A stretch of DNA of 64,000 nt from Nitzschia sp. DOCU1 (taxonomy: Eukaryota > Bacillariophyta > Bacillariophyceae > Bacillariales > Bacillariaceae). Under the pieces are notes generated by a model. It worked only from the letters and a program-made list of their open reading frames with translations. It was not told where the DNA came from and searched no databases. Below, one piece after another: positions 9,943 to 53,215 of the stretch; the stretch's first letter is position 1; each line of letters begins with the position of its first letter. Location of the stretch: positions 2,542,001-2,606,000 of the forward strand of contig OX595992.1 in the NCBI GenBank assembly GCA_951394045.1, written 5' to 3'. The position numbers were made by a program, and so were the translations under genes.

Positions 9943-10553
9943 GAACCGAATTTTGAATGATTGATAATCACACTACCCTTGATTTGCATTTGCTCGTTAC
10001 GACCTTCTTGATTACAGTAGGCAGTAATGGGTGGTAGAAGATAAGAGGGAGCGGAACTACCGGTAGTAGTACGGTAGCCACCGTTGTCACTTGGACGACA
10101 TGGTTCATCACTCCTGCTGCTCTCTACTACTCCAACTACTATCGTTGAAGCAGCTACTACTACCTCAGGTACAACTACCTCTATCTCGCAATGGGGTTTC
10201 TTGGCCTCGACTTCGCTCGTGCGCTCTCTCTACTCACCATTTCTCCAAAGATAATCCGCGTTTTCGACATAAAACCATTTAAAAGCCATAAGTAACTCGG
10301 TACTTCGCACTTCTCTAAAGAATTTCATAACCAAGAACTACAAGAAGAATTAGAAGACGCGGACAAGCTACTGTATGAGATGGAGATGCCGTTCGTCGCC
10401 GCCACCGTCCATCGCAGTTCGTTATTCGTGGAAGGCTGCTATTAGATGACCTCAACAGTTTCAAACGACCTCCGCACAACACGCACATACTAACAAATAT
10501 CCTTCATCCCTTTCCGCAATGAATGGATCTCGTTGAACCAGTACTATCCGAAG
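9943..10553. other. Intergenic, lipase 3' flank and paralogue B promoter
   Basis: The first part (about 9945-10060) is repeated in decayed form at 12335-12530. The last part (about 10405-10553, with CCCTTTCCGCAATGAATGG) is repeated upstream of paralogue C at 15675-15870. A palindromic ACTACCGGTAGT lies near 10058. No gene was recognised. Confidence 0.5.
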
Positions 10554-12065
10554 ATGTCGCGATGTTGTGTTGACTGTGGAACCTCGTCCGAAGATCAGGA
10601 GTTGCAGCCCGAGTATTTGTTCTCCAATCGTGTTGCAGCAAGGGCTTCATCGCGATTTGTGGTCGATGAACCTTCGTTGGCACGAGAACTTAATGCCTTG
10701 ACTGTCGAAGAACGAGAGAAGGTTTATGAGGAAATTCATGGAGTTGTCGATGTTGTCGAAGAGACTCCTGAATTAGTGGCAGATAGTCTTAAGAAGATGA
10801 GAGACGAACTAGCCAAAGTCTCCAAACGGAAACGGACCAATCTAGATCGAGCGATCTTCTTAAAGCCCAACATTGCAACGGACAACAAATTTCACTTGAT
10901 GTTTCTCCGGGCAGAACGGTTCGACCCAGAGAAGGCAGCTGTGAAAATGTACCGTTATTTTGATCACAAGCTTCAGTTGTTCGGTGACGAAAAGTTGGTC
11001 AAGCGAATCACTCTGGATGACCTTGGCGAGGCCGAGATGAAGTGCATGTACGAAGGATGGATGCAGGTGTTGAAAGTTAATGACAAGGGGCTCCGGGCGC
11101 TATACTCAAGAATTTCCGTCATCCCTGGTGTGGATGACTGGAAGTCCTTTACGCGATACATCTGGTATCAACTGATGTCTGCCCTCGAAGACGAAGAGAC
11201 GCAAAAGCGAGGCATTGTGGAGATAGCCAACATGTGCATGCCTTGGCATATCGGTGTGGGTTCATTGTTGAACGCTTTACGGAATTCTGGTCACATCTTG
11301 AATGATCGCCCAGTCCGAATCTGCGCCTATCATCTCCTCTACGACCAGCCCTCACTAGTTCCCTTCATCTCCGGCATGAATAGCATTATGAAGATTGACT
11401 TAAAACTTCGGAATAAGTTTCATTTTGGCTCTTCCCTGGAAATCAAGTATCACCTGATGTCATATGGGATCATTCTATCTGATGACGCCTTCCAACCTGG
11501 TCATGACATGCTTACTAAGGACAATATGGATGCCTATTTGGAAGAACGACGACGAAAGGAAGCCGAGCTGGAGCGCGTTGACAATCTGAGTTTGTCTGGT
11601 GGCTGTTGTCTCTTTCCTTCTCCCAAAGATGTGCTGATGGGCCGTGGTCGTCCGTTCCAATCATGGTACGGCAACGTTGCTTTGATATCCATTGTTCAGG
11701 AGTATACAAATATGTACTATATGCAAGTTGAGCGTCATGACAAGACTGAAGTAGCTTCTTTTATCGTCCGCCGGATCCAAGAAGGAGGCGGTCGGTTTCT
11801 CCAGCGTACGGATCGTCATTGGGAGCCCGTGAAGGACATTGCTGCAAGACACAAAGTCAGTCAATTGATACGCGCAAAATGGAGGAGCCGTCAGTCTGGC
11901 GGGGGGTCAAACTCCGACGATGACGATGACCCGACACAAGATGTACTTCTAGCACAGAAAGAAGATGAAGTGGAAGTTCTCTCCAATGAACCAGGAGGTT
12001 ACTCCTCAAACAAGCTGAGTTGGTCGACGGAACAGCCTTCCAGCAAGAGACATCGACTTTACTAG
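10554..12065 (+). CDS. CRAL-TRIO/DUF6824-like protein, paralogue B
   Basis: A 503-residue near-copy of A with the same order: Cys-rich N-terminus, conserved helical block, CRAL-TRIO-like part and DVLMGRG domain, ending SSKRHRLY. The start at the MSRCC methionine is preferred because it is shared by A, B and C. An in-frame ATG seven codons upstream (10533) lies in sequence that is also conserved before C (the MNQ codons), so a slightly longer protein is possible. Differences from A cluster in the region after LGEAEMK (residues about 160-215), where B agrees with C. Single exon. Function as for A: probable lipid-binding regulator, unproven. Confidence 0.88.
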   Translation: MSRCCVDCGTSSEDQELQPEYLFSNRVAARASSRFVVDEPSLARELNALTVEEREKVYEEIHGVVDVVEETPELVADSLKKMRDELAKVSKRKRTNLDRAIFLKPNIATDNKFHLMFLRAERFDPEKAAVKMYRYFDHKLQLFGDEKLVKRITLDDLGEAEMKCMYEGWMQVLKVNDKGLRALYSRISVIPGVDDWKSFTRYIWYQLMSALEDEETQKRGIVEIANMCMPWHIGVGSLLNALRNSGHILNDRPVRICAYHLLYDQPSLVPFISGMNSIMKIDLKLRNKFHFGSSLEIKYHLMSYGIILSDDAFQPGHDMLTKDNMDAYLEERRRKEAELERVDNLSLSGGCCLFPSPKDVLMGRGRPFQSWYGNVALISIVQEYTNMYYMQVERHDKTEVASFIVRRIQEGGGRFLQRTDRHWEPVKDIAARHKVSQLIRAKWRSRQSGGGSNSDDDDDPTQDVLLAQKEDEVEVLSNEPGGYSSNKLSWSTEQPSSKRHRLY

Positions 12066-12135
12066 TTGCGGACTGGTGGGTCACCATTTACTTTGGGGTA
12101 TCGACGGCACAGTGACATCCGATGGCATTGTCTAT

Positions 12136-12699: not shown

Positions 12700-15363
12700 G
12701 TCCGGCCTGCGTTTTCGTGTGAGTGTGCTCGCTTTCGGCGGGAAATGGGTTCCCTCCGTCTTTTAGCGAATTTTGAACGGTTTGTAAGATCCAGATGCCA
12801 ATCCGAGGCTCGATTCGACGCGGGAGGCCCACTCTTGGTGGTTTCTCGCGATGGGGATCCATTTTTGCAGTGCGTCGTCCAAGTTCAGCCCTTCGTTTAA
12901 GGTGTGAGCATATGAGTGCCGCACGGTTTGGCGGGGCTTTCCAAGGGTTCGCGGGTTTGGCATCCAGGCAACAGTAATCTTTCGGGGGTTTCGGGTCTCG
13001 GGCATGTTTGCTATTTTTTCCAGCCATCGGGATCGGCGGAGTTCCATATGCTGCACGAGAGTGTAGCTGCCGAGTTCTTCTCTGATTTGTTCATTTTGGA
13101 TGTGGAATTCTTTCACGTCATAAATATTCAGGTTCAACATCCATCGGAGGAAGCGGTGGTGGCATGCTTCGAGTTTGCGTCGGTCGCACTGTTTAAGTGC
13201 CCAGCTTTCGCAGCCGAAGAGAAGGATATTTAATACCGTGGCCTCGTATGCTCGGAGCCGAAGTTTGTGGGGGAGCTTCGGGTCTTTGAGAAGTTTGGCC
13301 ATGGCGGCAAATGCTCCGGTTGCTTTCTGGATTCTTTTATTTACATCGGTGCTGTCTTCAAGGGAGCTTGTGAAGATAGTGCCGAGGTATTTAAAAGCAT
13401 CGCAGAATCCGAAAAATTCGTGTTCGTTCAGCATGACATCGGCTGTGTCTTCTGGTCGTGTTTCATGCCCTGCTGCAGGGATGAACATGACTTCGGTCTT
13501 CGAGGCATCATTGTTTCTTTTGTCACCGCAATGGACTGTGAGTCCGAATCGGCGGAAGTGGGAGACAATAAGTTTTGAGGCAGCAATCAGTTCAGCTCGG
13601 GTTTGGAGGATGAAGGCAGCATCATCCACATAGTACGAGTTTGTGATGGAGAACTTTTTACCAGCTGTTCGAGAGCTGGTTCCTTTGCTTAGTTTGGGGT
13701 TGGATCTTCGGTCTATTGTTCCATCTTCATTCATTCCGTGCCAGCGGAAGTCTGGTTTTGCAAAGGTCCATTTCTTGTTGAGTGATTGCGCCACTGCGTT
13801 GATGAGAATTATAAATAGAATTGGCCCAAGGTTATCGCCTTGTTTCACTCCTACTGTGCCGGCAATTTTTGAAATCTTTGCTCCCACTTTAATTTGGTAT
13901 GTCACATTTTGATGAAGCTTCTTGATGACATCAATGGTTCTGCTTGGTATTCCGTAAATTGCTAACACTTTCCAAAGTAATTCTCGGTTGGCCGAGTCAA
14001 ATGCTTTGACGAGGTCTACAAACAGGACGTATGCTGACAGGTTGTGCTCCTTCATCGTTTGGAGTGCTGTTTTCAGAGAGAAGGTTGCATCAGTGCTTCC
14101 TTTTCCGAGTAAGCAGCCACACTGTTCATCGATTCCAAAGGTGTTGAGGTGGATTGTCAGTCTCCGTGCTAGAATGGATGCGGTCGTTTTTGCCGCGATG
14201 TCTCCCACTGCGATTCCTCGCCACTTGTTGGGGTTGGTGAGGTCGCCTGTTTTGGGGAGGACTTTTAGCTTGATTTGCGTCCATTCCTTGGGAAGAAACT
14301 CGGGATCGTTCCAGAATTTCAAGATGAGATTCTGGAGTGCCGTGAATCCTTCTCCAGTGAGGTTTTTGAAGGCCTCAGTGGGGATTTCATTGGGCCCCGG
14401 TGCCTTGTCGTATTGCATTTTGGCAAGGGCCTTTCTGATCTCTGCTGCGCTTGGTGGGGTGCCTAGGTTAGCATCTTCAGGGATCGGGTCGAGTTCTTCG
14501 AGCACTGTGGGGTCATAGCTGGTGGCTTCCGTCCTGTTGTAAAGGTCACCGAAGTGTTCTGCGAACACTTGTGCATTTTCGGTGTCGTTTGTGGCCAGGT
14601 TTCCTTCACTTTTTCGCATTTTCATTAGAGTGGCTTGTTGGTGGTGTCCATAAAGTCCTGCTGCGAGTTCTTTGATTGCTCGCCAGGCATTTTTTGGGTC
14701 GCTGTCCATTGTACCGAGTTCATCTAATTTTTTGCTGAGCCATGACTGCTTGGCGTTTTCTTTCGCGGTCCTGAGTTTCTGTCGCGCTTCCCGGAGGGTT
14801 TGTTTTGATCTCTGATCTCGCTTGCTCTTCATGTAATTACGGAGAGCTATATTGCGTTCTTTGATCCTCTCGAGGATGTCGTGTTTTGGGACAGGGTCGG
14901 TGTCGAACCATGCTGGTCTTTTGCGGGTCTCCGTCTCAATAGTGCTGGTTGCCGCACTATGGATCGCACTTGCAAGTTTGGAGTAGTCTTCGCCGCATTC
15001 TGGGGATTCTTCGAGGATCCGAGCAAGTTCAGCGTTGAACTTGTCTCTTGGTTCCTTCATCTTCAGGTCGCTCCAGTTGATTCTTCGGGGTCTGTCTCGC
15101 CTGTTTTTTGTTGGTAGGCTGCCAGGGTTCTCAGGTTTTTTTTCCTTCGGTTGTTTTTTCTTTGGGATGAAATGTGCGATCCGGACTGTGGCTTTGATGG
15201 CCAAGTGGTCGCTCATGACTCCTGCTTCATCTTCGGTGTTACAGTTTGTAATTCTCTTCCTGTCGGCGTGTCGAACCATGATGTGGTCTATTTGCCTTGG
15301 GTGTTCACCGTTGGCTTGGAAGGACCAGGTGTCGTGGTTGGGCTTGTCGAAGTAAGTAGCACA
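12700..15363 (-). mobile_element. 5'-truncated non-LTR (LINE) retrotransposon
   Basis: The element is on the minus strand. It keeps a full reverse transcriptase but only the last few dozen residues of the apurinic-type endonuclease (PRQIDHIMVRH..., SDHLAIK), after which homology stops near 15360. Truncation at the 5' end is typical of target-primed reverse transcription. No poly(A) tail or target-site duplication could be found, so both outer borders are approximate. It separates paralogue B and the lipase remnant from paralogue C. Confidence 0.8.
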
Positions 15364-15372: not shown

Positions 15373-15870
15373 CTACCGGTAATCCTATTATTATCCCCAA
15401 TCAAAAAACACTATTGTGAGTTAATCCGATTTTTCCCATCCATAATTCGAATGTTTAGAGGTCGCCGCCATGTGACGAATGGTCGTCTTAATTAAAAATC
15501 ATTAATAAGAATGAACGATGATAACCCGGCACTTCGATTCCACGGAGATATTTCATCGTGCGAAGAAAGTTCAACCAAGAACATCGGGAAGAATGTGTAA
15601 TAAGTAACAGAAAACGATTCTGTAGGTCTTCGAGAATTGGAAAAGGCAGGGCATATGATATCAGTCTAAAGATCCCATGCCGTTCGTCGCCACCCCACCG
15701 TCGATCGGTTCGCGGCGTCCAGTCGATATCATCTTCAGTTTCGAACAACGCTTACTACTATCGTTAATAGTGTAGTAGGCAGTGATGACATAAAAGAGCA
15801 AATCCGCTCAGACACAATTTTCGTCATCCCTTTCCGTAATGAATGGATCTCGTTGAACCAGCAACCGAAG
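15373..15870. promoter_or_regulatory. Upstream region of paralogue C
   Basis: About 500 bp after the LINE truncation point. The last 200 bp match the region before paralogue B (ATGCCGTTCGTCGCC near 15676, CATCCCTTTCCG..AATGAATGGATC near 15824), so the promoter was copied with the gene. No other feature was seen. Confidence 0.5.
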
Positions 15871-17349
15871 ATGTCGCGATGTTGTGTTGACTGTGGAACC
15901 TCATCCGAAGATCAGGAGTTGCAGCCCGAGTATTTGTTCTCCAATCCTGTTGGAGCAAGGGCTTCATCGCGATTTGTGGTCGATGAACCTTCGTTGGCAC
16001 GAGAACTTAATGCCTTGACTGTCGAAGAACGAGAGAAGGTTTACGAGGAAATTCATGGGGTTGTCGATGTTGTCGAAGAAACGCCTGAGTTAGTGGCAGA
16101 TAGTCTTCAGAAGATGAGAGACGAACTAGCCAAAGTCTCCAAACGGAAACGGACCAATCTAGATCGAGCGATCTTCTTAAAGCCCAGCATTGCAACGGAC
16201 GACAAATTCCACTTGATGTTTCTCCGGGCAGAACGGTTCGACCCAGAGAAGGCAGCTGTGAAAATGTACCGTTATTTTGATCACAAGCTTCAGTTGTTTG
16301 GTGACGAAAAGTTGGTCAAGCGAATCACTCTGGATGACCTTGGCGATGCCGAGATGAAGAGCATGTACCAAGGATGGATGCAGGTGTTGCAAGTTAATGA
16401 CAAGGGGCTCAGGGCGCTATACTCAAGTCTTTCCGTCATCCCTGGTGTGGATGACTGGAAATCCTTTACGCGATACATCTGGTATCAACTGATGTCAGCC
16501 CTCGAAGACGAAGAGACGCAAAAGCGGGGAATTGTGGAGATAGCCAACATGTGCACGCCTTGGCAAATCAGCGCGGGCTCATTTTTGAACACTTTACGGA
16601 AATCCGGTCACATCTTAAATGATCGCCCAGTCCGAATCTGTGCCTATCATCTCCTCTACGACCAGCCTTCAATAGTCCCCTTCATCACTGGCATGAATAG
16701 CATGATGAAAAAGGACCTCCGGCTTCGGAATAAGTTTCATTTTGGCTCTTCCCTGGAAATCAAGTATCACCTATTGACATTTGGGATCACTCTTTCTGAT
16801 GACTTTTTCCAGTCAGGTCAAGGAATATTTGCTACTGACCATGCCGAGGCCTATTTGCAAGAACGACGACGAAAGGAAGCCGAGCTGGAGCGCGTTGACA
16901 ATCTGAGTTTGTCTGGTGGCTGTTGTCTCTTTCCTTCTCCCAAAGATGTGCTGATGGGCCGTGGACGTCCATTCCAGTCATGGTACGGCAATATTGCTTT
17001 GATGTCCATTGTTCAGGAGTATACAACAATTTACTATATGCAAGTGGATCGTCATGACAAGACTGAAATAGCTTCGTCTATCGTCCGCCGGATCCAAGAA
17101 GGAGGCGGTCGGTTTCTCCAACGTACGGATCGCCATTGGGAGGCTGTGGAGGACATAGTTGCGAGAAACAAAGTCAGCCAAGTTATGCGCGCAATCTTGA
17201 GGAGCCGCCAGTCTGGTGGCGACACGATTTTCTACGAGGACCCGGCACCAGAAGAGGAGTCCTCGATGGAACGCGACGCCGGCAACTCCTCAAAAAAGCT
17301 AGTTTCCTCCACGGGAGAGCCATCAAGCAAGCGGCATCGACTTTACTAA
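15871..17349 (+). CDS. CRAL-TRIO/DUF6824-like protein, paralogue C
   Basis: A 492-residue member very close to B through residue 215. It differs more in the second half (QISAGSFLNTLRKSGHIL and the ATDHAEAYLQ region) and has a shorter acidic tail (PAPEEESSMERDAGNSSKK). Domains in order: Cys-rich N-terminus, conserved helical block, CRAL-TRIO-like part, FPSPKDVLMGRG domain, tail ending SSKRHRLY. An in-frame ATG lies six codons upstream (15853); the MSRCC start is preferred by alignment. B and C share their 5' flank, so one derives from the other by a duplication that included the promoter. Single exon; function not established. Confidence 0.88.
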   Translation: MSRCCVDCGTSSEDQELQPEYLFSNPVGARASSRFVVDEPSLARELNALTVEEREKVYEEIHGVVDVVEETPELVADSLQKMRDELAKVSKRKRTNLDRAIFLKPSIATDDKFHLMFLRAERFDPEKAAVKMYRYFDHKLQLFGDEKLVKRITLDDLGDAEMKSMYQGWMQVLQVNDKGLRALYSSLSVIPGVDDWKSFTRYIWYQLMSALEDEETQKRGIVEIANMCTPWQISAGSFLNTLRKSGHILNDRPVRICAYHLLYDQPSIVPFITGMNSMMKKDLRLRNKFHFGSSLEIKYHLLTFGITLSDDFFQSGQGIFATDHAEAYLQERRRKEAELERVDNLSLSGGCCLFPSPKDVLMGRGRPFQSWYGNIALMSIVQEYTTIYYMQVDRHDKTEIASSIVRRIQEGGGRFLQRTDRHWEAVEDIVARNKVSQVMRAILRSRQSGGDTIFYEDPAPEEESSMERDAGNSSKKLVSSTGEPSSKRHRLY

Positions 17350-30647: not shown

Positions 30648-32123
30648 TCATTGAGCGCGGTGACGTTTCGATGGGCCCTGCAAGAGATCCAACTTTTGCG
30701 CCTTGGATTCTGCGGCGGGGACTTCACGGCCGTCACTTCCCTCCTCCTCGACACTATCGACCACGGGATCTGATCGATTCTTGAACTCAGCACGCAATAG
30801 CATGATAACCTTGTGTTTTGCAACACATTCGTCTACTGCCTCCCATCCGGTGAGAGTGCGCTGTAGAAATCTGCCCCCGTCTTTCTCCTGTATCTGCTTG
30901 ACGATATCAGCAGCAACGGTGTTCTTATCGTAGCCTCTTTCATTGCTCTTCAAATGTTGTTCACTGCTCTTGGAGACAAGTTCCGACAGTCGCAGGTTTC
31001 CATGCCATGTAAACGCAAAGCGACCACGGCCCATCAAGACATCGTGTGGCCTAGGGTAGAGGGCGCAATCGGATGTGCCGACTGTTGTGCTCTCTCCCCA
31101 ATAACCCAAATGAGGATCTTCCCTTAACTTGGCCTCTTTTATTCTGCGTTGTGTCAAGTAAGTCTCGACCTGATCCTTGTTAAAAATTCCCTCGCCCGGT
31201 GTGAGGAAGTCAAGTGGTATTCTGATACCGAATGACAGGAGGTCGTACTTTAGCTCTAGCAATGATCCCGAATGAAGCCTTTTCCGGAGCCTCAAGTCCT
31301 TCTTCATAAGTCCATTTGATGCGCTGATAAAGGAACCCAGCGATGAAGAATGGTCACATAGAATATGAAAACCACAAATACGAACAGGTCGATCATTCAA
31401 AATGTGCTGGGACTGTCGAATAGAATTCAAGAATTCACCAACGCCGAACTTCCACGTTCCACACAGATTGGCCACTTCCACAACGCCTCGCTTTTGAACC
31501 TCTTCGTCTTCCAGGGCCGCCATAAGTTGATACCAAATATATCGGGTTCGTGTCTTCCAGTCCAGAACACGACCCATTGCCGAGAATTTGCAATAAAGTG
31601 CACAAAGTCCCTGATCGTTAACCTTCAAAACCTGTGTCGACGACTCGCGAATACATCTCATCTCAGAGTCAGCCAAATCATCCAGAGTGATTTTCTTGAC
31701 TAACTTTTCTTCTCCAAATAATTCGATCTTGTGTTCAAAGTACCGGCTCATTTTCTTGGCTGCCTTTTCGGGGTTGAAACGTTCCGCCCGCAGAAACATT
31801 AAGTGAAACTTGTCGTCAGACGCTATGCTGGGTTTCAAGAATACGGCCCGGTCGAGAGCGGCACGTTTTCCTTGCGGAATGTTGGCCAATTCATGTCTCA
31901 TGCGCCGTAAGCTCGACGCCACAAACTCGGGCGTTTCCTCAATCACGTCAGCGACGCCATGGATTTCGTCGTAGACTTGTTCCCTTTCGTGAAACGTCAA
32001 AGCATTCATTTCGTGAACAAAATTTGGAATCGAAGCGAAGGAGGAATCGACATCCCGTGTCGTTGACATGGTCGACGATAGCGGTTGTTTTGCTATCCTC
32101 TCTCGCCTGCAGCAATTTTCCAT
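30648..32123 (-). CDS. CRAL-TRIO/DUF6824-like protein, paralogue D
   Basis: A 491-residue divergent member of the family. It opens MENCCRRERIAKQ, has the conserved block LTFHEREQVYDEIHGVADVI, the CRAL-TRIO-N-like LRAERFNPEKAAKKMSRYFE, a CRAL-TRIO-like core with RPVRICGFHILCDHSS, and the second domain with YPRPHDVLMGRGRFAFTWHG followed by VKQIQEKDGGRFLQ. It ends PSKRHRAQ. It is closer to the truncated gene at 1-1228 (shared HILCD/HVLCD-QSSSLG and helical-block wording) than to A-C, so the window holds two sub-groups. It lies on the minus strand 13 kb from the tandem cluster, indicating a dispersed older copy. ATG 32123 is supported by the family-like CC start. Confidence 0.87.
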   Translation of the reverse strand: MENCCRRERIAKQPLSSTMSTTRDVDSSFASIPNFVHEMNALTFHEREQVYDEIHGVADVIEETPEFVASSLRRMRHELANIPQGKRAALDRAVFLKPSIASDDKFHLMFLRAERFNPEKAAKKMSRYFEHKIELFGEEKLVKKITLDDLADSEMRCIRESSTQVLKVNDQGLCALYCKFSAMGRVLDWKTRTRYIWYQLMAALEDEEVQKRGVVEVANLCGTWKFGVGEFLNSIRQSQHILNDRPVRICGFHILCDHSSSLGSFISASNGLMKKDLRLRKRLHSGSLLELKYDLLSFGIRIPLDFLTPGEGIFNKDQVETYLTQRRIKEAKLREDPHLGYWGESTTVGTSDCALYPRPHDVLMGRGRFAFTWHGNLRLSELVSKSSEQHLKSNERGYDKNTVAADIVKQIQEKDGGRFLQRTLTGWEAVDECVAKHKVIMLLRAEFKNRSDPVVDSVEEEGSDGREVPAAESKAQKLDLLQGPSKRHRAQ

Positions 32124-37127: not shown

Positions 37128-37903
37128 TGCGCAAGAGAAAATCTCAAGAATCCCCGCTGCGTTGACAGTCGGAAGGATTGACAAAAGTATCATGCCATGT
37201 GGTGGTGGAAAGCCGACACGACCAGGTGGCCAAGAACAAAAAGCCAAGAGTCCTTTCGAAAGTCGGGGCCATCCGCTCGAGACATGACAAGACAGAGTTT
37301 GCGAGGAAATAATGTGGCGTCCAACAAGGCTAAACTCCTACTACTACGCGCGGTAGTACTAGCCGCCATGTCGGATCCACCAAAACAGAAATGCATGAAA
37401 TGCTTGATTGGAGACATGACGATAGTCTGGAGTAAGACTACACAGGCAAAGATCAAGCAGTGGCCTAGTAGACGGACCCGACGAGGAATCCCGGCCACCC
37501 CCGCCAGAACGCTTCGTCTAGTAGTGTAAGTTGGATGATGATGATGATGTGACCCGACTCCTTGAGTAGTAGTGGTAGTTGTAAGTGACCGAACTGATTC
37601 ACACTCTGTAACTACAAATGCTTACATGTTACTAGCTATGTGTGTGGTTACACGTTAGTAGTAGCTATGTGTGTGGAGAGCTGTTGCACACAGTCTGGTA
37701 TGGTGGAAGAGGCTCACTCTCTTGCCCTTCCAAACACATTTAAGCCCTCCTCCCAAACATGCATAATAACGGCATGAATTATGACGGCGAGATGACGTGT
37801 TTGAAAGAAAAATGGGTGGCAATCTCAGTGGACGCAAAAACTATGACGTGATGGCGCAGCAAGTTGCTGGGAACAGACGAGAAAATTGCCGAAGGTTTCT
37901 CCG
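37128..37903. other. Intergenic, contains one copy of a dispersed repeat
   Basis: About 775 bp before the AAA_16 ATPase gene. Around 37565-37650 it carries GTGGTAGTTGTAAGTGACCG...TGTAACTACAAA, which recurs at 41660-41765 upstream of another gene. TAGCTATGTGTGTGG occurs twice close together (37635 and 37665). No coding feature was seen. Confidence 0.5.
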
Positions 37904-40900
37904 ATGATGCCTGCTGCTGTGGTTTTACCGAAGGTACAACAATCATTTGATTTCATGTCGTTTTCGACTGGAAAAGGTTCACTAGGAAGCTCGGCCGATG
38001 ATGGGGTTTCCTCATTGGATCGAGACGATAACAAATCATCGTTTTTGTCGCTCGCCGACGGCGGCAGCGGTGATTTTCAACTCTTCGGCGAAAGTACCGG
38101 TAGTCGTATTGGGTCGACCGCTCCAAGATCATCGTTTTATGCCTTGCAACCCCAGAAACGAAAAGTCAATGATTTGTCAGGCTTGACAATCGATAAGTTG
38201 GCATTTGATTCTCTCGGAATACACGGAAGGGATCGAGAGATCGCGGTCCTGAAGAAACACTTCGATTCACTACTTGAAGCGACGTCACAGCGAAGTTTAA
38301 TACTCATTTCTGGGGTAAGCGGGAGTGGAAAATCCAAACTGGCAGAAACGCTCCGTCAGCGGACTGTCCAACACAATGGAATTTTTGTACGGGGTAAATT
38401 CGGTTTGAACATGAGAGGTGAGCCCTATTCAGGGATTGCAAATGCTTGCGCCGAGATTTTTGGGGCCATCTTCAAATTTAGAGAAAGCGATCCCAAAAGG
38501 TTCCAAACGCTGTGCAAGGAAATAGCGACCACGCTAGGATCCGAAGCCTCGTTGCTGGCTCAAGTCATCCCCGCCATTGAGGAGGTGGTTGATATTAGTG
38601 TGACTAGTGGCACATCGTCGCCACAGTCATCGTCTGGTGACGCCAAAAATCGGATTCAATTCGCTTTCGTACGGTTCATGCGCGTTATATCAACACAATT
38701 CTTCCCACTACTCATCGTTCTGGACGATCTTCAATGGGCTGATAGCTCCTCCTTGGATCTATTGGAGGTTCTGATGTTAGATAGGAAGAATCCCAAATTC
38801 ATGGTGGTCGGTATTTATCGATCCGATGAGGTAGACGAGACCCATATCGTCTACAGGTGCCTACGGGAGCTTGAGGCCAAAAGCCAGGATGGAGATTTTA
38901 TTCTGAGTCGTCTGGCAATCAATGATTTGGACATTGAGGCTGTCCATGAAATCATCCAAGATGTAATCCGCTGTCAGGCGGAGTCGCGGACCCTAGTTCT
39001 GGCGCAGATATGTCTCGACAAGACTAACGGAAACCCGTTTTTCCTTATCCACTATCTGGCCATGCTATACAGCAAGAATCTCTTGCAATTTAGCTTTGGT
39101 ACCTTGTCCTGGGTCTGGAACGAGGAGGAAATCCAGTCGTGCACTCAAGCAAGTGACAATGTTGTCGATCTGCTGAAAAGAAAAATGTTTGGTCTCCCCG
39201 CCGATCTTTTGAAGCTGCTCAAACTAGCTTCCTGCCTGGGCTCTACGTTTGAGGTTGAGACTCTGCGATTGTTGTGGGTCAAGTTTAATTTTGATGAGTC
39301 ATCAATTCACGATTCGTTGTTTTGTGCATGTTTAGTACACCTCGAAGAGGAAGGTCTAATTGCCAAGGGATCCGAATCGCCCCCTCGTCGTAGATGGACC
39401 CACGACAAGATTCACGAAGCTGCCATCGAGCTGTTCCCAGAAGATGAGCAGGGTGCTTGGAAACAACGGATAGGAGAAATTCTTGTATCTGAGCTCAGCG
39501 AGGAGAAGTTGGATTCTGCAATATTCGTTGTGGTAAACCTGCTTAACGAGGCGCCTCTTGAATCAAGCAACGCTGAATCAAAGTTGAATCTTGCTCGGCT
39601 GAACCTCGAAGCCAGCCAGAAGGCCATCAAAGTCTCGGCGTTTGAGAGCGCCGCCAAGTACGCGGGGAAAGGGATAGAGTTGCTACCGGATAACCACTGG
39701 AAGGAACACTACGACCTAAGCTTGAAGCTGTATTCGACAGGGGCCAAGGCGGAGGGATTTTTGGGCAATGTCGAGAAGATAGAGCGTTATTGCAGATCCG
39801 TTTTATCGCAAGAAGACTATCCTCTCGAGGACAAATTGGACGTTTATTACACTTGGATCGACAGCGTTTTCAATCTTGGCAATGTGCAAGAGGCTGCTGA
39901 CTTAGCCTTGGAAGTCCTGGCAAAGTTCAAATGTCGGTTTCCGAAAAATTCAGTGATCGTGACATTGGGAGTAGTGAGGAATATCATTGGCATCAAGGCT
40001 ACATTGAAGTCTCGTGATCCGGTTAAGCTTCCCCGCACGACCGATAAAACAAGGGTCAAGCTAATGAAGTTGCTTGATAAGCTTGCAGGCTGCTTCTACA
40101 TGCTGAAGGATCCTCGCTTGCCCTTGGTTGTCTTTCGAACCCTTAATTGGACCATGAAGTACGGTGTCTGTGAATACTCTGCTGCGGCATTCGCCACAAC
40201 TGGAATAATGTTGACTGGCATATTAGATGATATACAAGGAGGCGCAATCTACGGACAACACGCACTTGATCTCATGACGGGCTCTGGCTCCAAAATGACG
40301 GCACCACGGGTAATGTTTTGTGTACACTCGTTTCTCCTTTCATGGACCCAGCCGTTTAGGAGCCAAAGAAAGCCTCTACTGCACGCATACGATATGGGGC
40401 TACAAACAGGGTACGTTGACCTTTGACGCGGCTTCTTGCGCTTCGATTTAGTTTTCGCTGCTTGGTTGTGACTGACGCTCTGCCTCATTGTCAGTGACAC
40501 CGAAAGTGCCTGTTGGGCCATTTTCCACTTCATTTTACTGCAATTCTATTCTGGAATTCCGTTGCAGATGTTGGAAGCTGATATGTTCTTGTATTCTAAG
40601 CAAATGAAGGATTTGAAGCGGGAGCAGGTGAACAAAGCAGCCAACTTGAATCGCCAACTATTTTTGAATTTGATGGGTCTTGACAATGGGGAGGATCCTA
40701 CACAGTTTGTGGGCCGTGCATTCAGCAAAGAAGATCTCGAGTGGTCACGCGGAGACGAATTTTTGAATGCCGGGGTCATTATGTATCAAGGAGTCTTATG
40801 CACATACTTCGGTGAACATGCTCGGCAGGCTGATTGTATGATCAAGTTCGGGCACGATTATGAAGCGAAAAGCCATGTGGCCTCTCCACAAATCATATTT

Positions 40901-45257: not shown

Positions 45258-45831
45258 ATGCCCAAGAAGACTCCCGAGCATCATGCTCCCTTGCCCCTAA
45301 AAGAGCTTGAAACTTGGGTATTGCCCCAGACGTTCCAATGGCTTCAGCAGGGAGATGCCAAGGCGGCTGCTTTTCAAGACGAATTGGATGCCAATGGTGC
45401 CGATCAAATTGCCGACTTGTTTGCCAGTAATAACAATGATGACAGTGATAACGATAGTGACCGATCCGATGCCGATTTTGAAGGTCATCATGGAAGAATC
45501 CGAGTTTGGACAAGTTCTTCGAGCAATCTGGATGGAGTCGGAGGCAGATACGACGGTCCTCCATCCTCCAATGATGACAATGACGAAATTCAAGATCCAT
45601 ATGCACATCGCATAGTTTATATTATTTCGGAAAGCTGGGAAGGCTATGGTGATTTATTATGGGCGTCCTCACGTCATTTGGGAAATCAATTTGCACATGC
45701 CGATAAATGTCGACAACTCTTGGGTGGAATTGTCGACGACGACGACGACAAGGATCAACACCCGCTCACCAATCTTCGTGTCCTCGAGTTGGGTGCGGGA
45801 TGTGGAATACCCAGTCTCATGGCCATGAACT
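45258..45831 (+). pseudogene. Lysine-methyltransferase-like gene, 5' part, broken by insertion
   Basis: The N-terminal part of a SAM-dependent methyltransferase of the Methyltransf_16 (METTL21/lysine methyltransferase) type. From ATG 45258: helical start (LETWVLPQTFQWLQQGD), acidic Asp/Asn-rich linker, SESWEGYGDLLWASSRHL, and SAM-binding motif I, LRVLELGAGCGIPSLMAMN. Straight after this the frame enters unrelated DNA and ends at a stop in the insertion (45933-45935), giving a useless 34-residue tail. The sequence continues logically at 52701 (CGARVVCTDLDN). Removing 45832-52700 joins the halves in frame into a 362-residue enzyme, so the break is an insertion, not an intron: neither edge has GT...AG. 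Confidence 0.85.
45809..45831. repeat. Left copy of the 23-bp direct repeat flanking the insertion
   Basis: The repeat starts ACCCAGTCTC and ends GGCCATGAACT, inside methyltransferase codons PSLMAMN. The right copy is at 52678-52700 and differs at one position (C here, A there). Interpreted as a target-site duplication. Confidence 0.8.
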
Positions 45832-45849
45832 TATATAGAGAAAGATATG

Positions 45850-46115
45850 TCACACATTTCCAATCAATGTTCCCTTTGACGTACCGAGGTCACCTGTGTC
45901 AGGTCCAAGCGTGGTTTCCAGCTTGTGGACAATGACAGGCATAGCTTTCAAGCAATCCATCGCGAATCTCGCCATTACAACTGCATGGTCCTTTAGAGGA
46001 ATAGGAACACCGGCCGAGGCAACGTAGCAATCACTAATATGCAACGGAACCGATGAGCCAGGATTGCGATCAACGAGACGCACGAGACCAAACGACGAGA
46101 CTTTTTTCGAGCAAC
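45850..46115 (-). pseudogene. Fragment of an adenylate/guanylate cyclase exon
   Basis: On the minus strand the frame reads DCYVASAGVPIPLKDHAVVM, then ARFAMDCLKAMPVIVHKLET, then TLGPDTGDL. This corresponds to the middle of a class III nucleotide cyclase domain (the GDCY(V/M)A motif and following helix). It ends in a good 5' splice site (GACCTCG|GTACGT near 45891), and upstream near 46106 there is a possible 3' splice site (TTGACAG). The next cyclase element (a GLHSG-type motif) and all earlier metal-binding parts are missing, and the residues before DCYVA do not fit the family. It is an isolated exon carried in the inserted DNA, not a gene. Confidence 0.7.
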
Positions 46116-46122
46116 CTGTCAA

Positions 46123-46510
46123 TGTAGGTACGATATGATAAGTAAAATAATATCACACATTTGCGATCTCTTCTGCGACAGAGTAGACGAACGGGTCACG
46201 GGTTCAAGACACGAATTCAAGGTGCGAGGTCGACCTTTTGAAGGACCGACAAACGAATGAGGAGTTGAGAACTCTCGCGCGCGCGGAAAAATCCTGGCGC
46301 GAGCTCACTTTTTGGATCAAGTCGTCTCCCACAATCGTCAAACGACAAAAAAAACACACGGTTCACATTTTCCTCTTGCACTATTGTCGAGTGGCAAGCA
46401 AGTACTTGCTGACTTCTTTCCAGTATTTTCTTTAGATTATCGACTGTACCAGGTAAGGAGAGATGCATTCGCAAAGACTCTAGTCTTTCAGATGTACTGG
46501 CGCGTTTTGT
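46123..46510. other. Non-coding stretch in the insertion
   Basis: Between the cyclase fragment and the tandem repeat. Short open frames on both strands have no domain. A CG-rich run (CGCGCGCGCGG) lies near 46278. Confidence 0.35.
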
Positions 46511-46891
46511 TTGCTCTTGCTAGCGTCAATTCCTTGCGCCATGGACGCTTTCTTGCCGACGCAAGAACGACCATGGCGATGTCTACTCTTTCGTTTCTCG
46601 TTGAATCCGTTCATGCATCGTCTGTTCATGCATCGTTTGCATGACTCGCTATTCGGATTTCGGCGGCTTGTTGTTGTTTGCAATGTGTGATTTGCTCGTG
46701 CAAGCGTCAATTCCTTGCGCCATGGACGCTTTCTTGCCGACGCAAGAACGACCATGGCGATGTCTACTCTTTCGTTTCTCGTTGAATCCGTTCATGCATC
46801 GTCTGTTCATGCATCGTTTGCATGACTCGCTATTCGGATTTCGGCGGCTTGTTGTTGTTTGCAATGTGGGATTTGCTCGTGCAAGCGTCAT
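46511..46891 (+). repeat. 181-bp tandem repeat, two copies plus a partial third
   Basis: The unit running from GCGTCAATTCCTTGCGCCATGG recurs at a spacing of 181 bp (46523, 46704), and a third partial start is at 46885. The two full copies are almost identical. 181 is not a multiple of 3, so the repeat changes reading frame between copies, and any in-frame upstream extension of the HNH gene through it is probably not coding. It lies 60-430 bp before the HNH gene start and may contain its promoter. Confidence 0.8.
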
Positions 46892-46949
46892 TGTTTTTGC
46901 TTGTCGACTTCTATGTACAACTGACACATTATTCTATTCTCTTGACAGA

Positions 46950-49531
46950 ATGAAAGTCTACAACGTTGATCCTTCTCTCGATCAATCACCTAACGATGCT
47001 CGTTTGTTCGAAACGAACTTGCCGCTTGTTCTCGTCGAGCACTTTCAGTCATGGTTTCGCCATCGCGATGATGGTCGTCTATTTTTGATCGACTTCTTGA
47101 TCCTGGACTTTCTCGAGACGTGTAGGTTCCTGTTGAATCTCCAGAAACTACATCAAGTCTTGTTGAGAGCCAATGACCCGGATGATGACTTCTCGTTATC
47201 GTCATGCGTCAAGGAGGGAATCTACGGCATTCTGTCTATGTACATCTCATGTCAAATAGATCCCGATGATCCACCAAAAGACCCCAATGATCCAAACTGG
47301 GTTCACAATGTTGAAGGACACCACGTCGTGCCAAAAGGAGTTGGTGGAGCCCTGTATTCGGTCTGGAACATGATCTACGTCTCGTGCGCCGATCATTTCT
47401 TTTTACACATGGCACTTGATGCAGTATTCTTCGATCACGGTTTTGTCCTAGCACATTCAGTGACAATGATGTCGTACGGTCCAGGATCGAATCGTAACTG
47501 GGATCGGGACACTGCCGAACAGTTCATGCGAGATCGCAGTAAGTGTGTGGTCTGACTTGTAACTTTTCATCTATTTTGTGAATTCATCAAAGCTTTCTCT
47601 CTGCTCTTGCTACAGACGTCCCGGAATCTTTGATAAAGAGAATCGGAAAGGCTAGAGCTGCTGCGTTTGCAGCGGTCTCTGACAGGATGAGCCTTCTTCC
47701 ACCAGAAGAACGTAGCAAACTGGTTTGGCTTGATGAGATGTACTCTGGAAATAGGTTCCAGAAATGGTCGACAATTGCTTCCAAGTTTCACTCAGGATTC
47801 ACTCAAGATTATCTCTACCAACATATTACCAACATCAAAGCCACTGGTACTATCAATCGTTTTCGAGGTAAATTTGATCCACCTCTGGACCTCCGAGACG
47901 ATGAAAATTTCCAAGGCAAAGAACCTTGGACTGGTTTAGACCACCTTCTTATGGGGCCTCCCGTCATCATTGAACCTCGACCTTTTGCATTTGCCAACGA
48001 CCCATCCTTTATTTATCCGTTGGCCTGTTTCATTGGTAGGAATTTGGAGGTGTTTACCGTCGAGACGCCCTCCATAATGTCAGGTGTTGGAATGATAAAA
48101 AGGGGCAGAGTTGGCTTGCGTTGTTGCCATTGTCTTCGTCCTCTATTTTCTGGATCAATCAAGCAGCTGTCAGTGCGGATGGGTGCGTTTGCGAACGAGC
48201 ATTTCAAAAAGTGTCAGAAGCTTCCAAGTGATCTCAAGTCTGAATACGAGCGATTGTGGGCAAATCGTGATCGCAACAAATCCGGCAGGACGACGACATA
48301 TTGGAGTGAGACTGCGAAGGGTCTTGGGATGGTCGACACTGACAACGGTATTCGATTTGGTGTGGATAACACTCATCTTACCGTTCTTATGCAAGCGTCC
48401 GACAGTGCTGCAGAAAAAGAAGCCGCTGTGCTGAAACGTCTGGTTAGACCGGAAGACCGTTCTTGCACCTCTGATTTCTTGTATCAGTTGTTTTCTCAAG
48501 TACGAGTCGTTGCTTTCACAGAAAAAGACGCTCAACCGCACACGGGAGAACGTAAGCCGATTGGATTTCCTGGATTCGCTTGTATCCACTGCTACGAGAA
48601 GAGAAGTAATGCAAGTCGATTCTTCTACTCCGAAAAAGTTTTCACAAAGCAATGGATCCGTGCCTTGCGGACGGTCCGCGACCATCTGCTACGTTGCGAA
48701 GAATTCAAATCACAAGCAGGACTGTTGGACTCATTGCTTGAAGCCCAAAAATGTCATGACGTGCAGCTGGCTGAAATGAAAGCAAGGATGGTTTATCAAA
48801 ATACCTTCTTTCAACGACTTTGGAAGAACATGTGCGGGACGGAATCTCTTCAAGACGCTCTTGTCGATGCCAAGAAGAAGAAAATGTATGGCTCTATGTG
48901 GAGACGAGCGGAGATGTCAGTCGAGTCGCCTATCGACACCAAGATGCCATCTCTGGATACCAAGTTGCCGCCTCCGGACACCAAGATGCCACCCGTCGCA
49001 ACCACAAGCTCCACCAACTTGCCATCGATTGTGACTGTTGATCCTGGTGATGTTCCTCTCGTTGCGAAGATGCCTGTCATCACGTCTTCCGTTGCAGCTA
49101 AGCCTAATGCTCTTACTCATTTAATGAGGAACGAGCAGAAGCGTTCGATTGACGCTAAGATCAAGTCTACCATTGACAAACGCAAGTCAGCCAGTCGATC
49201 TACGCAGAATCCTGGCGTTCCTACGCAGGCCAAACGTCACAAGAACGTCCTCGAAACTGCCTCTCTTTTGACGAACAAGGACAGCACAGCGACGAAGTCC
49301 TTGAAGCAACAGACCTTGTGTTTTCCAAACAAGACACTCGTTTCAGCACCACTGCCTTCTCCTTTGCGTCATGGGCGTACTCACCGATCAATTCTTGATA
49401 TGTCGGAAAGGGAACAAGTACAGCTGGCGATTCGGAATAGTTTGGAGACTGTGGAAGACATTTCGTCTGATGATGACGTCGATGATGAATGGGCATATTC
49501 GTCTGACAGTGACGACAGTTACACCGACTAG
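46950..49531 (+). CDS. HNH-nuclease motif fused to two C2HC zinc modules, two exons
   Basis: An 834-residue protein. Exons 46950-47538 and 47616-49531; the 77-bp intron (GTAAGT...ACAG) joins MRDR|NVPESL in frame. Residues 120-155 read NVEGHHVVPKGVGG, then SVWNMIYVSCADHFFLH: His124, His125, Asn140, His149 and His153, spaced as in HNH nucleases of the HHxxP-x-GG...N...H...H group that includes homing enzymes. Then come a W-S-x-IASKF helical region (about 246-270) and two zinc modules: VGLRCCHC...NEHFKKC (366-396) and FACIHC...RDHLLRC (518-557), each C-x2-C...H-x3-C. The first is followed by TTTYWSETAKGLGMVDTD, a sequence type recalled from many diatom hypothetical proteins. The C-terminus is Ser/Thr/Lys-rich, then acidic. 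Probable nuclear DNA-binding nuclease (inference). ATG 46950 follows a TTGACAG that could be a splice acceptor, so an upstream exon is possible. Confidence 0.75.
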
Positions 49532-50224
49532 TCACATCGCCGACTAGTTGGGTGCCGTCGATCGTTGGCATCACTCCGACTCTGACTGTGTCGGTTTTTT
49601 GAGAAACAACGATAACGACACGAGGACTACGATGACGACGACGCTGTACCCATCCAATCTCGACCAAGATTGGAGACTACGAATTACTACTGGATTCTAT
49701 TAGCGTGTAAGAATAATGACGACGAATCGTCGCACCCGGGGTGCATTCTTCACCATACCTGCACAGTAGTAAAATTTATTAGTGTGTCGTAATGTCAAAT
49801 CTTTCTAGTTAGATCAATAATAGATCACCGGCCCACTTACCGAAAACACCATAGCTTGGTATAATGTGACGAACATAGGGCCGGCCGACGCTGGAAAAGA
49901 TGTGTGATTGTAGCTATTATGGAGGAGAGAAGGACGCCCGGCGCCTTGAACGTAAAGTTATTTAAAGTCGTAGCTGATGGAAGAATGACCGGCATTTGAA
50001 CGGATACGTGATTGTAGGAATCAGGAATCTACGTTTCCTTGGATTTACATAACTACGTCATTGAATCATTCGACTGGCCATCCATTCTCCTAATTCCCGA
50101 AGAGCGTTACAGGCGTCAGCAAAAACCTGCTTTCCTCAGCGTGCTTTTTTCCCACACAAACGGGACATTATTAAATCAACGAAAACGCAGACTTTATCTG
50201 CGAAGCAACACTACATACAAGACG
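49532..50224. other. Spacer inside the insertion
   Basis: About 690 bp between the HNH gene and the SET gene. The SET frame is open upstream to 50039 but reads like leader. No repeat or RNA was seen. Confidence 0.35.
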
Positions 50225-51175
50225 ATGGATGAAACCCAACAACCCGCACCTGTCATTGCACCTGCCTTGGAGAGTCTGACCGAAGCGGCGGTTGTGGCAA
50301 TGCTGGAACTCGGCCAGGTGGAAAAGAAGAAAGGAAAGGTGGTGCTTACGAGAGAGGAACTGCAGCACAAGCGCGAGGCTAACAGATTGCGAACGGCAAA
50401 GTCTCGGCTGAAGTATAAAAAACCAGCGCCAGTCAGAGTGGCGATCCAGCCGAAAACAGACGATGAAGGACGCCCCGTGATTCTGACGGAAATCGGAAAA
50501 TTCGTTAATGGTCTTTTGAAATGTGACCTTCGTGAGTGGAAAGACAAAATCGACCAACGGGTCGAGGTATGTTTGGTTCTAGAGAAAGCACTGGCGAAGA
50601 ACATCATGCAAGAAAAGAGCAGACGAGGCGAGGATGTGGTGGTGAAGGCGGACGAGGAGAGAACACGCTGGTGGTCAATCTACTGGATTGGCGACGACGG
50701 GGAACGCACCAAACTATTTGAAGTTAAAAAGTCGACAATTCTCAATGCCGGATACGGCCTCTTTGCGGCGCAGGATTACGCTGTTACAGAGGTACTTGGG
50801 GTATTTTATGGTGATAAGATTGTGGAGGCAAAAAAAGGAAACGACAATGCACCCAACGAGTACGCCATGTTCGTAACGTGGCCGCCTAAAGCCAAATCGA
50901 GGACGGCCAAAGGCAAAGCCAAGAAGAAGGCATCTACAGTGAAGCAAAATCGATTCTACGTGATCCCAAAAGGTGGACCAGCCAGTGACCTGAAAGATAC
51001 TGGTCTGTCTTTCTTCGGCTTCCACATGGCAAATGACCCTTCGTTTGGCCTCCCCAAAAGAAGACTCCATCCGAATTTCAACATTGCCGTACTGCCTAAC
51101 CTGACTGTAATTGCCTTGACCAATATCAAGGCTGGAGAAGAACTCTTCTTAGACTACAATATTGGCGACAACTAA
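50225..51175 (+). CDS. SET-domain protein with bZIP-like basic segment
   Basis: A 316-residue protein; ATG 50225. Residues 48-66 (HKREANRLRTAKSRLKYK) match the N-x7-R basic region of bZIP factors, but no leucine zipper follows. The SET domain covers about 168-312: STILNAGYGLFAAQDY, VLGVFYGD, FGFHMANDPSFG, NFNIAVLPNLTVIALTNIKA and EELFLDYN with the catalytic-type Tyr311. The canonical N-H-S-C is replaced by HMAND, and there is no post-SET Cys cluster. A Lys/Ala insert (226-237) splits the domain. SET proteins methylate lysines with SAM. The changed NHSC motif leaves activity uncertain. Its place in inserted DNA suggests cargo acting on chromatin at or near the element (inference). Confidence 0.78.
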   Translation: MDETQQPAPVIAPALESLTEAAVVAMLELGQVEKKKGKVVLTREELQHKREANRLRTAKSRLKYKKPAPVRVAIQPKTDDEGRPVILTEIGKFVNGLLKCDLREWKDKIDQRVEVCLVLEKALAKNIMQEKSRRGEDVVVKADEERTRWWSIYWIGDDGERTKLFEVKKSTILNAGYGLFAAQDYAVTEVLGVFYGDKIVEAKKGNDNAPNEYAMFVTWPPKAKSRTAKGKAKKKASTVKQNRFYVIPKGGPASDLKDTGLSFFGFHMANDPSFGLPKRRLHPNFNIAVLPNLTVIALTNIKAGEELFLDYNIGDN

Positions 51176-51294
51176 CAATACATACTAGTTCACAATAACT
51201 TCTAGTCTATTATTTGTGTATGTATTTGTTCTAAATTAGTTAAAGTAGATCGCAATCTAGAGAATATCTGGATTGTCTAAAATAATTTGAATAG

Positions 51295-51942
51295 TTAGTA
51301 TTCGATAGTGACGTAGGGTAGATCATCTGTATAGATGATACAACCGCCTACTCCGTAGAGCATGAACCGAGGAACAGCAGACCAGGTCGGAAATTGCCAA
51401 CGAAGGATGGCACCCATACGCAAATTCCAGAGTCCATGGGACTCTGGCACAGTCGCACGGATTTGCAGTGTCTTGATCGTTCCATCTCTATCTTTGCAGA
51501 GAAAGTCTGGATAGCGATGGTGAGGGAGCCTAAACATAACCCGAACCACCAACTCGCCACACTCAAAAGGGAGCCCGTCTAGAGCCTTCAGTTGGACCCA
51601 AGTGAGTGGAAGTAACGGCGGCCACTCCGAAATAGCCTCGCAAGTACTAAGGCGGCGGTGGGCTTGAAAACAACGACGAGAACAAAAGCCCGTTTTGCAC
51701 TCGTGGCAACAACGAAGACGCACGCCACTAACTCTCTCACAGTGTTGACAAGTGAAATAGTCGACACCATGGGGGTCGACCGGCGGCGATGCGGTGATGG
51801 ATTCGACAATCATCCGCGCTTCGGGTGAACTGAACGAAGTAAGAGTCTGGTCAGGGAAGAAAGAAGGCCAAGCCTGCACGACGATGACACGATCAAGTAT
51901 CTCGTCGCGGTTTCTTCCCTGGTAGACGATTGGTCCTTCCAT
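51295..51942 (-). CDS. MYND-like zinc-finger protein
   Basis: A 215-residue protein starting at ATG 51942 (MEGPIVYQGRNRDEIL). Residues 65-101 hold CQHC...CHECKTGFCSRRC, then H95 and C101: eight putative zinc ligands (C65, C68, C79, C82, C87, C91, H95, C101). The first six are spaced as in MYND fingers. The last part is shorter than usual, with His four residues after C91 rather than eight. The C-terminal 110 residues have alternating hydrophobic segments (FECGELVVRVMFRLP, MGAILRWQFPTW) with no family I know. MYND domains mediate protein contacts and often accompany SET domains in SMYD enzymes, so finding one next to a separate SET gene is suggestive. Convergent with the SET gene, 119 bp between stops. 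Confidence 0.62.
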   Translation of the reverse strand: MEGPIVYQGRNRDEILDRVIVVQAWPSFFPDQTLTSFSSPEARMIVESITASPPVDPHGVDYFTCQHCERVSGVRLRCCHECKTGFCSRRCFQAHRRLSTCEAISEWPPLLPLTWVQLKALDGLPFECGELVVRVMFRLPHHRYPDFLCKDRDGTIKTLQIRATVPESHGLWNLRMGAILRWQFPTWSAVPRFMLYGVGGCIIYTDDLPYVTIEY

Positions 51943-52677
51943 GGTGATTCGAAGACAACTAGAGCGTTGAGGGACGACGACGATGTTTGACAACAAAACG
52001 AAATGAAATGAGACTTCGAGACAGGCTACAAACGACTAATTGTACACTGAAGATATCGACTCCCAGGGGACGGTGGGACTCAGAAGACCAACTATAAGTA
52101 GTTCGTTAGTAGCGTAATGTCGATCCAAGGTCGTTCCAAGATCGAAACAATGCGCATGCTACAACGCCGATATGTAAATTTATCGACAAGCGAATCGCGC
52201 GGTGGCTTGAAACCGATTAATCGTGATTCGGTACCTCGCCCGACTCGGCCGGGCATATCAACACTGCCACAGTAACCCGGAAAGACCGAATATTCAAAGC
52301 AGGTAGAACATCTCGCGTCAAAAGTCGCGAGCTTCATTCTTCGAGAGAAACTGGGTCTCAATTTTTATCAAACGTGGTATAAATATATTCATGACAGAGA
52401 TGTAGTTAAAGAATAGATAGGACCTAATTATGCCGAAAATCACTCTATAGTGGTTAAAGAAAAGTCGCCTTCCACGAGGTCTGAATCGCAAACACCGACG
52501 AAACTTGATAGCAAATTCATCGAACCACGCGCACTCAAAAGTCGACGATACCGACTTTTGCTCGTTTTCGTTCTCAACAGCGCCCACCCACCCCCGCCCT
52601 CCTACAAACAGTAAGATGACCGACGACATCAGTTCGGATGACGACCCTATATTTGCCTCGATCACAAAGGGATAGGA
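51943..52677. other. Right end of the insertion, no clear gene
   Basis: Contains a short hairpin at 52536-52560 with 9-bp arms (CAAAAGTCG / CGACTTTTG). An ATG at 52615 opens a 19-codon frame ending in TAG just before the right repeat; it is acidic (MTDDISSDDDPIF) and could be the first codons of a lost gene. No other coding signal was seen. Confidence 0.4.
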
Positions 52678-52700
52678 ACCCAGTCTAATGGCCATGAACT
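52678..52700. repeat. Right copy of the 23-bp direct repeat flanking the insertion
   Basis: Starts ACCCAGTCTA and ends GGCCATGAACT; it differs from the copy at 45809-45831 at a single base. It is directly followed by the methyltransferase codons for CGARVVCTD. Confidence 0.8.
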
Positions 52701-53215
52701 GTGGGGCACGTGTGGTATGTACCGATTTGGACAATCCCAATCGGATACGTAGTTTGGCAGAAGCCATGCAACGAAACTACGAGGAGTTATTACTGTCGGT
52801 GGTGGACGCGAAAACTACCATTCCGAACGTAGTACGAAGGAATGCACCCATGGCCAAAACATGTCCATTTCGTTGGGGAACCTCATCGGAAGCCGTCGCC
52901 AAATGCTTAAATGAAAATGGAACCGAACGATTTGATGTCATTTGTGCGACCGATTGTTTATTCATGCCATGGCTACACTACGAATTGCTCCAGGGTATCG
53001 ACGAATTGTTAGACCTGAAAGGTGTGGCAATCATGGCATTTGCGATTCATGAAGCGTATTCTAAAGACGAACAAGTATGGCCATTTTGTGACAAGGCCAA
53101 GGAAAAAGGATTTGATGTGGAAATTTTAGATGCCGTTCAATTGACGCCACCCCGAAAAGGTATGGATCCCAAGCAAGGTTTGATTCATGTACTGAGATTA
53201 ACCAGACGACAATAA
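52701..53215 (+). pseudogene. Lysine-methyltransferase-like gene, 3' part, displaced by insertion
   Basis: The C-terminal half of the methyltransferase begun at 45258. It starts with CGARVVCTDLDNP (strand beta-2 with the acidic residue that binds the SAM ribose) and continues with RFDVICATDCLFMPWLHYEL (motif IV region), GVAIMAFAIHEAYSKDEQ and GLIHVLRLTRRQ before the stop. A short frame with ATG at 52688 (inside the direct repeat) could still be translated, but it would lack motif I and so could not bind SAM normally. No stops or shifts have accumulated in either half, so the insertion is probably recent, or an intact allele exists. Confidence 0.85.

Follow-up and report, generated by a model that had tools for sequence, protein, structure and literature searches.

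Genes can be copied to new chromosomal sites at the DNA level, as has been described in plants. In Arabidopsis, flanking direct repeats of at least 15 bp were reported for 11 of the 25 transposed genes that have an identifiable parental site, with repeat lengths of 34–550 bp (Table 4 of that paper), and insertion of a circle is the favored explanation (Woodhouse et al., 2010; PMC2869330). Rice provides the patch-mediated double-strand-break insertions of Vaughn and Bennetzen (2014; as summarized in PMC7407515 and PMC8355091), and in grass genomes gene movement has been attributed to gap patching (Wicker, Buchmann and Keller, 2010). The subject of this report is a 64,000-nucleotide stretch from the diatom Nitzschia sp. 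DOCU1 (GenBank assembly GCA_951394045.1, contig OX595992.1, positions 2,542,001 to 2,606,000; hereafter the window), in which a methyltransferase gene is divided by an insert of 6846 bp. The insert carries a fragment of a nucleotide cyclase gene followed by a cluster of three open genes (gene A, a SET-domain gene and a MYND-like gene), parts of which recur at three other loci. The mechanism appears to be of a kind known in plants, the unusual part being the recurrence of one multi-gene segment.

The assembly searched comprises 52,080,636 bases in 63 contigs, and the window lies within a contig of 2.8 Mb. The insert is bounded by a 23-bp direct repeat with 22 of 23 positions identical, and the repeat pattern, allowing up to three mismatches, occurs twice in the window and in none of 100 shuffled sequences. 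The sole difference between the copies (CTC versus CTA, both leucine) is synonymous. Joining position 45831 to 52701 (or 45808 to 52678) restores a frame of 1089 bases, i.e., 362 codons and a stop, and the joined product aligns through the junction with all nine aligned homologues (57–68% identity; 46 homologues found), in which the methyltransferase is uninterrupted. These include P0014 (Nitzschia sp.) and P0015 (Odontella aurita), both from diatoms. The invariant columns spanning the break are P185 S186 L187, A189, G193 A194 and V196 to D202, and the 23 bp are methyltransferase coding sequence that is single in the aligned homologues. An insertion with a target duplication and a split methyltransferase gene of 362 residues, both proposed in a preliminary description of this DNA, are thus confirmed. 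The lysine methyltransferase family PF10294 is annotated (precomputed) on 44 of the 46 homologues, one of which carries the name calmodulin-lysine N-methyltransferase in its source; the two halves score 20.7 and 11.6 bits against a Pfam cutoff of 21.

From the left half of the gene, the reading frame continues into the insert for 34 codons and then meets a stop; the open frame of the right half begins with an ATG at 52688 and extends to 53215. Both flanks, searched as DNA against the assembly, match only themselves, all remaining matches being inside the insert, and the right half searched as protein matches only itself. An uninterrupted copy of the gene, for which the preliminary description proposed a search, was therefore not found in the same assembly, and this conserved methyltransferase gene is broken by the insertion in the one copy that was found. 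It is plausible that the insertion is recent or heterozygous. The insert was also considered, on paper, as an intron that is spliced over; splicing at the GT and AG that lie inside the repeats would lose one base from the frame, and this option was rejected.

A DNA search with the insert returned 24 matches, the window included. Long stretches of the cluster occur at four loci, namely the window and three places labeled C15, C9 and C16 (93–96, 84–94 and 86–97% identical to the window, respectively); shorter matches include about 1 kb of gene A at C13, the cyclase piece at C4, small pieces at C9 and a few others. The small C9 pieces, from the 3' region of gene A and the SET gene, are scattered over 107–200 kb, near the contig end. 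The C15 copy is located at the 3' end of an MscS gene (PF00924), between target duplications of 216 bp that are identical at 215 positions, the only mismatch lying three bases from the edge. The repeat corresponds to the 3' end of the MscS open reading frame (ORF), and since its right copy retains the last codons and the stop, an intact MscS gene may remain. The C15 copy contains two nested insertions, one of about 8.4 kb and the other of about 8.6 kb, at the equivalents of window positions 47639-47644 and 51210-51213. Gene A is disrupted there by an insertion and apparently also by a frame change. The ORFs of the first nested insertion look like those of a long terminal repeat (LTR) retrotransposon; it also contains a perfect inverted repeat of 487 bp (C15 coordinates 784714-785200 and 787653-788139) and may be an internally inverted LTR-type element.

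The C9 copy lies inside an UNC-93/MFS gene. The piece of this gene to the left of the insert is matched by all of the 120 homologues listed (373 found) and the piece to the right by 70 of those 120 as well, and in the 14 homologues whose alignments were inspected the two pieces are consecutive, with 3–36 residues between them. Gene A and the MYND-like gene are present in this copy together with a different SET gene (best match 20 residues at 45%). The C16 copy is probably within a CRAL-TRIO gene, the domain being found on one side of it; Pfam gave no support for the candidate N-terminal piece (only DUF3813, below cutoff), so that the splitting of this gene is a reading of the ORFs. C16 has no equivalent of 48861-52434 and hence retains only part of gene A. 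The position of the copies in or at genes does not by itself indicate a strong bias in a gene-dense genome.

The borders of the window insert had been taken to define a mobile unit, and a search for other insertions sharing its ends had been proposed. This view is not supported: the relatives at C15, C9 and C16 begin and end elsewhere, the left edge in the window falls within the cyclase fragment, which extends further left in C15 and C4, and the target duplication at C15 is of 216 bp rather than 23 bp. At C15, about 375 bp of cyclase sequence (94% identical to C4) give way on the left to 617 bp that match an open ORF for an oxygenase on C7, with 615 bases identical. C9 and C16 have a common left part, different from that of the window and C15, and the C16 edge and the C9 stretch between the UNC-93 frame and this common part are unlike except for a few bases. 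On the right, the window insert ends at 52677, the C15 copy at the equivalent of 52121 and the C16 copy at that of 52571; the C9 match extends to 52389, and the C9 insertion runs beyond it, up to UNC-93 sequence. As both ends differ among the four long copies, no common end is seen.

The same internal joint between cyclase fragment and cluster occurs in the window and in C15, which suggests a chimeric ancestor common to these two copies. Since each extends further on one side, neither was simply duplicated from the other, and the cyclase pieces have too few changes to settle the order of the copies (window/C15 256 of 262 bases identical, window/C4 250 of 259, C15/C4 244 of 259). Four junctions, three at C15 and one in the window, were read by eye. 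About two shared bases occur at the C7/MscS, C7/C4 and C15 right-edge junctions, a weak signal that may reflect chance; the C7/C4 junction is preceded by some 30 rearranged bases, and the left edge in the window has about 3–4 extra bases.

None of 18 inverted pairs (at least 14 nt) joins the two edges of the insert. Pfam searches with the window and C9 cluster genes, and NCBIfam searches with those submitted, gave no transposase, integrase or recombinase family, and neither the shared ends nor the target duplication of fixed length that characterize cut-and-paste elements and Pack-MULEs were found among the copies (23 versus 216 bp). These results agree with the preliminary description, which recognized no transposon class. 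Gene A has retained a GT-AG intron that a retrogene or a copy made by a long interspersed nuclear element (LINE) would be expected to lose, and the cyclase fragment ends within an apparent intron (read by eye); the kept intron of gene A and the apparent one of the cyclase fragment disfavor an RNA copy. Features expected of break repair are present: the matches between copies include intergenic and intron sequence, the direct repeats derive from single-copy targets (the methyltransferase gene and, for C15, the MscS 3' end), and shared or extra bases are seen at the four junctions. Fuller copies were located in the assembly only for the cyclase piece (C4, a gene with PF00211 exons) and the oxygenase piece (C7).

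The reading preferred here, with a probability of about 0.7, is a duplicative transposition of genes at the DNA level by break repair, without ends or an enzyme of its own. A staggered break would have occurred in the methyltransferase gene and been mended with a copy of a chimeric segment, composed of the cyclase-gene fragment and the gene A-SET-MYND-like cluster; filling in of the stagger would have duplicated 23 bp of the target, and the foreign segment would have been attached by end joining or template switching. The staggered break, the fill-in and the end joining are the inferred parts of this scheme, as is a common chimeric donor of the window and C15 copies, for which the assembly yielded no locus. 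The ragged ends, the captured fragments, the kept intron, the bases at the junctions and the unlike target duplications all fit the repair of staggered breaks by end joining or template switching.

The locus resembles the Arabidopsis cases (PMC2869330) in its duplicative movement at the DNA level with non-coding sequence kept, and in its flanking direct repeats; in Arabidopsis these repeats match, in many cases, a single sequence at the orthologous target site and are often genic. It differs in that the Arabidopsis cases are single genes judged against a sister species, whereas here a multi-gene segment with chimeric ends is found at four loci of one genome. Rice patches, in the summaries cited, likewise show a tandemly duplicated target and inserts that come from ectopic donors, in many cases more than one, for which staggered nicks and end joining are invoked; their inserts are of 10–1000 bp, in contrast to 6.8 kb with three open genes. 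The outlined grass case also involves a break repaired with a foreign fragment bearing a gene, although the hosts are grasses. Among the papers listed in literature searches, no title or beginning of an abstract describes such an event in a diatom, which is no proof of absence. The locus offers a worked case in a diatom of a multi-gene segment copied into genes, in which junctions can be read and the captured pieces have fuller copies elsewhere.

The genes of the cluster were compared between copies by the ratio of nonsynonymous to synonymous change (dN/dS), using rounded counts and Fisher tests whose p values carry no multiple-test correction. Between window and C15 the ratio is 0.20 for gene A exon 1 (p 0.0002), 0.26 for the SET gene (p 0.0007) and 0.45 for the MYND-like gene (p 0.06), and 1.51 for codons 4-340 of the gene A exon 2 ORF (p 0.36, not different from 1). 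For gene A between window and C9 the values are 0.25 in exon 1 (p 0.00007) and 0.63 (p 0.004) and 0.38 (p 0.005) in the first and last parts of exon 2; between C9 and C16 they are 0.59 in exon 1 (p 0.18) and 0.69 in part of exon 2 (p 0.24). These values indicate that parts of the cluster have been constrained since the copies separated and that part of gene A changes fast. The gene A-type proteins have an invariant, finger-type Cx2C...H...C pattern in the seven aligned. Neither Pfam nor NCBIfam assigned a family name to gene A, and a protein search with its exon 2, in which 7995 candidates were scored, gave one distant match (30% identity over 20% of the query).

Pack-MULEs and Helitrons both carry host gene fragments, the former having terminal inverted repeats and short target duplications of fixed length, the latter having neither terminal inverted repeats nor target duplications. 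Neither type accords with duplications of 23 and 216 bp; one Pack-MULE with 10-bp target duplications is mentioned in PMC2869330. An unrecognized DNA transposon that makes long, variable target duplications and leaves truncated copies is quite improbable: a target duplication, a family of copies and a gene with a finger-type pattern, part of it fast-changing, could be read in this way, yet the four long copies lack a common terminus, the insert ends lack an inverted repeat, no transposase family is matched and the two duplications differ widely in length. Target duplications made by LINEs do occur in the range seen here, and the window contains a reverse-transcriptase ORF (12763-15279). LINE machinery acting in trans, by a staggered nick and target-primed reverse transcription of the copied segment, is nevertheless very improbable with an intron retained, genes on both strands and, by eye, a poly-A tract at neither edge; LINE-made nicks followed by end joining are a possible source of the break.

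Amplification of the cluster as extrachromosomal circular or linear DNA that re-enters at breaks, i.e., as a semi-autonomous mobile multi-gene unit, would explain why one cluster recurs with ragged ends and two target duplications, and circle insertion has been proposed for the transposed Arabidopsis genes (Woodhouse et al., 2010; PMC2869330). This is unlikely in view of the order of the parts, which in window and C15 is no circular permutation of one sequence: in C15, what follows on the left of the shared cyclase piece is further cyclase sequence and then oxygenase sequence, not the right end of the window insert. An assembly artefact at one or both edges is barely credible; a misjoin would not be expected to yield a 23-bp target duplication with one synonymous difference, the internal chimeric junction is found again at C15, and the window lies inside a 2.8-Mb contig.

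Several points weigh against break repair without an enzyme. No donor locus was found for the cluster, and gene A may hide an enzyme. Positions 52572-52677, at the right end of the insert, match nothing elsewhere in the assembly, which makes the right junction unreadable. Only two of the four copies have a target duplication, C9 and C16 being without one, with exact edges that are uncertain: near the C9 edges the sequences share no stretch as long as 8 bp, and near those of C16 none longer than 8 bp, where wider windows gave one 12-mer and two 11-mers away from the edges. The presence of one segment at four or more places also exceeds what unselective patching would lead one to expect from the controls. 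These were few (three 7-kb segments of the window); two had no copy longer than 100 bp, and the third contained one multi-copy gene (AAA_16) with 12 further places longer than 1 kb (77–83% identity, eight of them on C11). A tentative and rather unlikely extension is that the finger, SET and MYND-like genes form a mobile multi-gene unit without fixed ends, which spreads copywise, enters genes at staggered breaks and captures fragments of host genes, part of its own genes being under purifying selection and perhaps acting on chromatin or breaks so as to favor their spread. If the recurrence of the cluster proves general, it raises the testable question of whether certain gene clusters can spread with no transposase.

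The features of the locus are listed in Table 1.

Table 1. Split methyltransferase gene and contents of the insert (window coordinates).
Feature	Position	Strand	Basis
PF10294-type lysine methyltransferase gene, 5' part	45258..45831	+	profile just under Pfam cutoff, joined frame, homologue alignment
23-bp target duplication, left copy	45809..45831	+	repeat search
Insert, 6846 bp	45832..52677		repeat and restored frame; partial copies elsewhere
Class III nucleotide cyclase gene fragment	45836..46101	-	95% identical to C4:401140-401408; also in C15
Two tandem copies of 181-bp unit, upstream of gene A	46510..46871	+	repeat search
Gene A, 834 residues, one GT-AG intron (47539-47615)	46950..49531	+	ORFs, comparison with copies
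SET-domain gene, 316 residues, PF00856	50225..51175	+	Pfam
MYND-like cysteine-pattern gene, 233-residue ORF from TTG	51295..51996	-	ORF, pattern
Stretch 97% identical to right end of C16 copy	52435..52571	+	genome match
Possible start of coding sequence of a further cluster gene, near right edge	52616..52675	+	weak, read by eye
23-bp target duplication, right copy	52678..52700	+	repeat search
Methyltransferase gene, 3' part	52701..53215	+	ORF, joined frame, homologue alignment

The 181-bp unit is repeated in C15, C9 and C16 as well. A genome search with gene A exon 2 gave 30 matches, a count that includes the window itself and separate pieces of one locus. The protein encoded at 51295..51996 is presumed to be MYND-like from its cysteine motif, Pfam giving no match to MYND. 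No solved structure matched the SET or MYND-like proteins at E 0.01. Kinship of the SET genes to one bacterial SET-domain NCBIfam family was considered and set aside as weak (19.9 and 22.9 bits against a cutoff of 550), as was a viral origin of the cluster: scans of viral contigs showed no relative of gene A or the MYND-like protein and a single SET match of 29 residues at 50%.

Elsewhere in the window, the AAA_16 gene of the third control segment occupies 37886-40426, and its 12 further places match it over about 2 kb of DNA. Genes with DUF6824 (PF20710) are repeated at 6040-7602, 10542-12092 and 15816-17219 and, inverted, at 31223-32012; the first three are 84–92% identical to one another and 67–69% identical to the inverted one. 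The reverse-transcriptase ORF mentioned above (minus strand, 838 residues, RVT_1) lies between two of these genes and possibly belongs to a LINE-type element, and a further DUF6824-related stretch (67–70% identity) is found at 330-1087.

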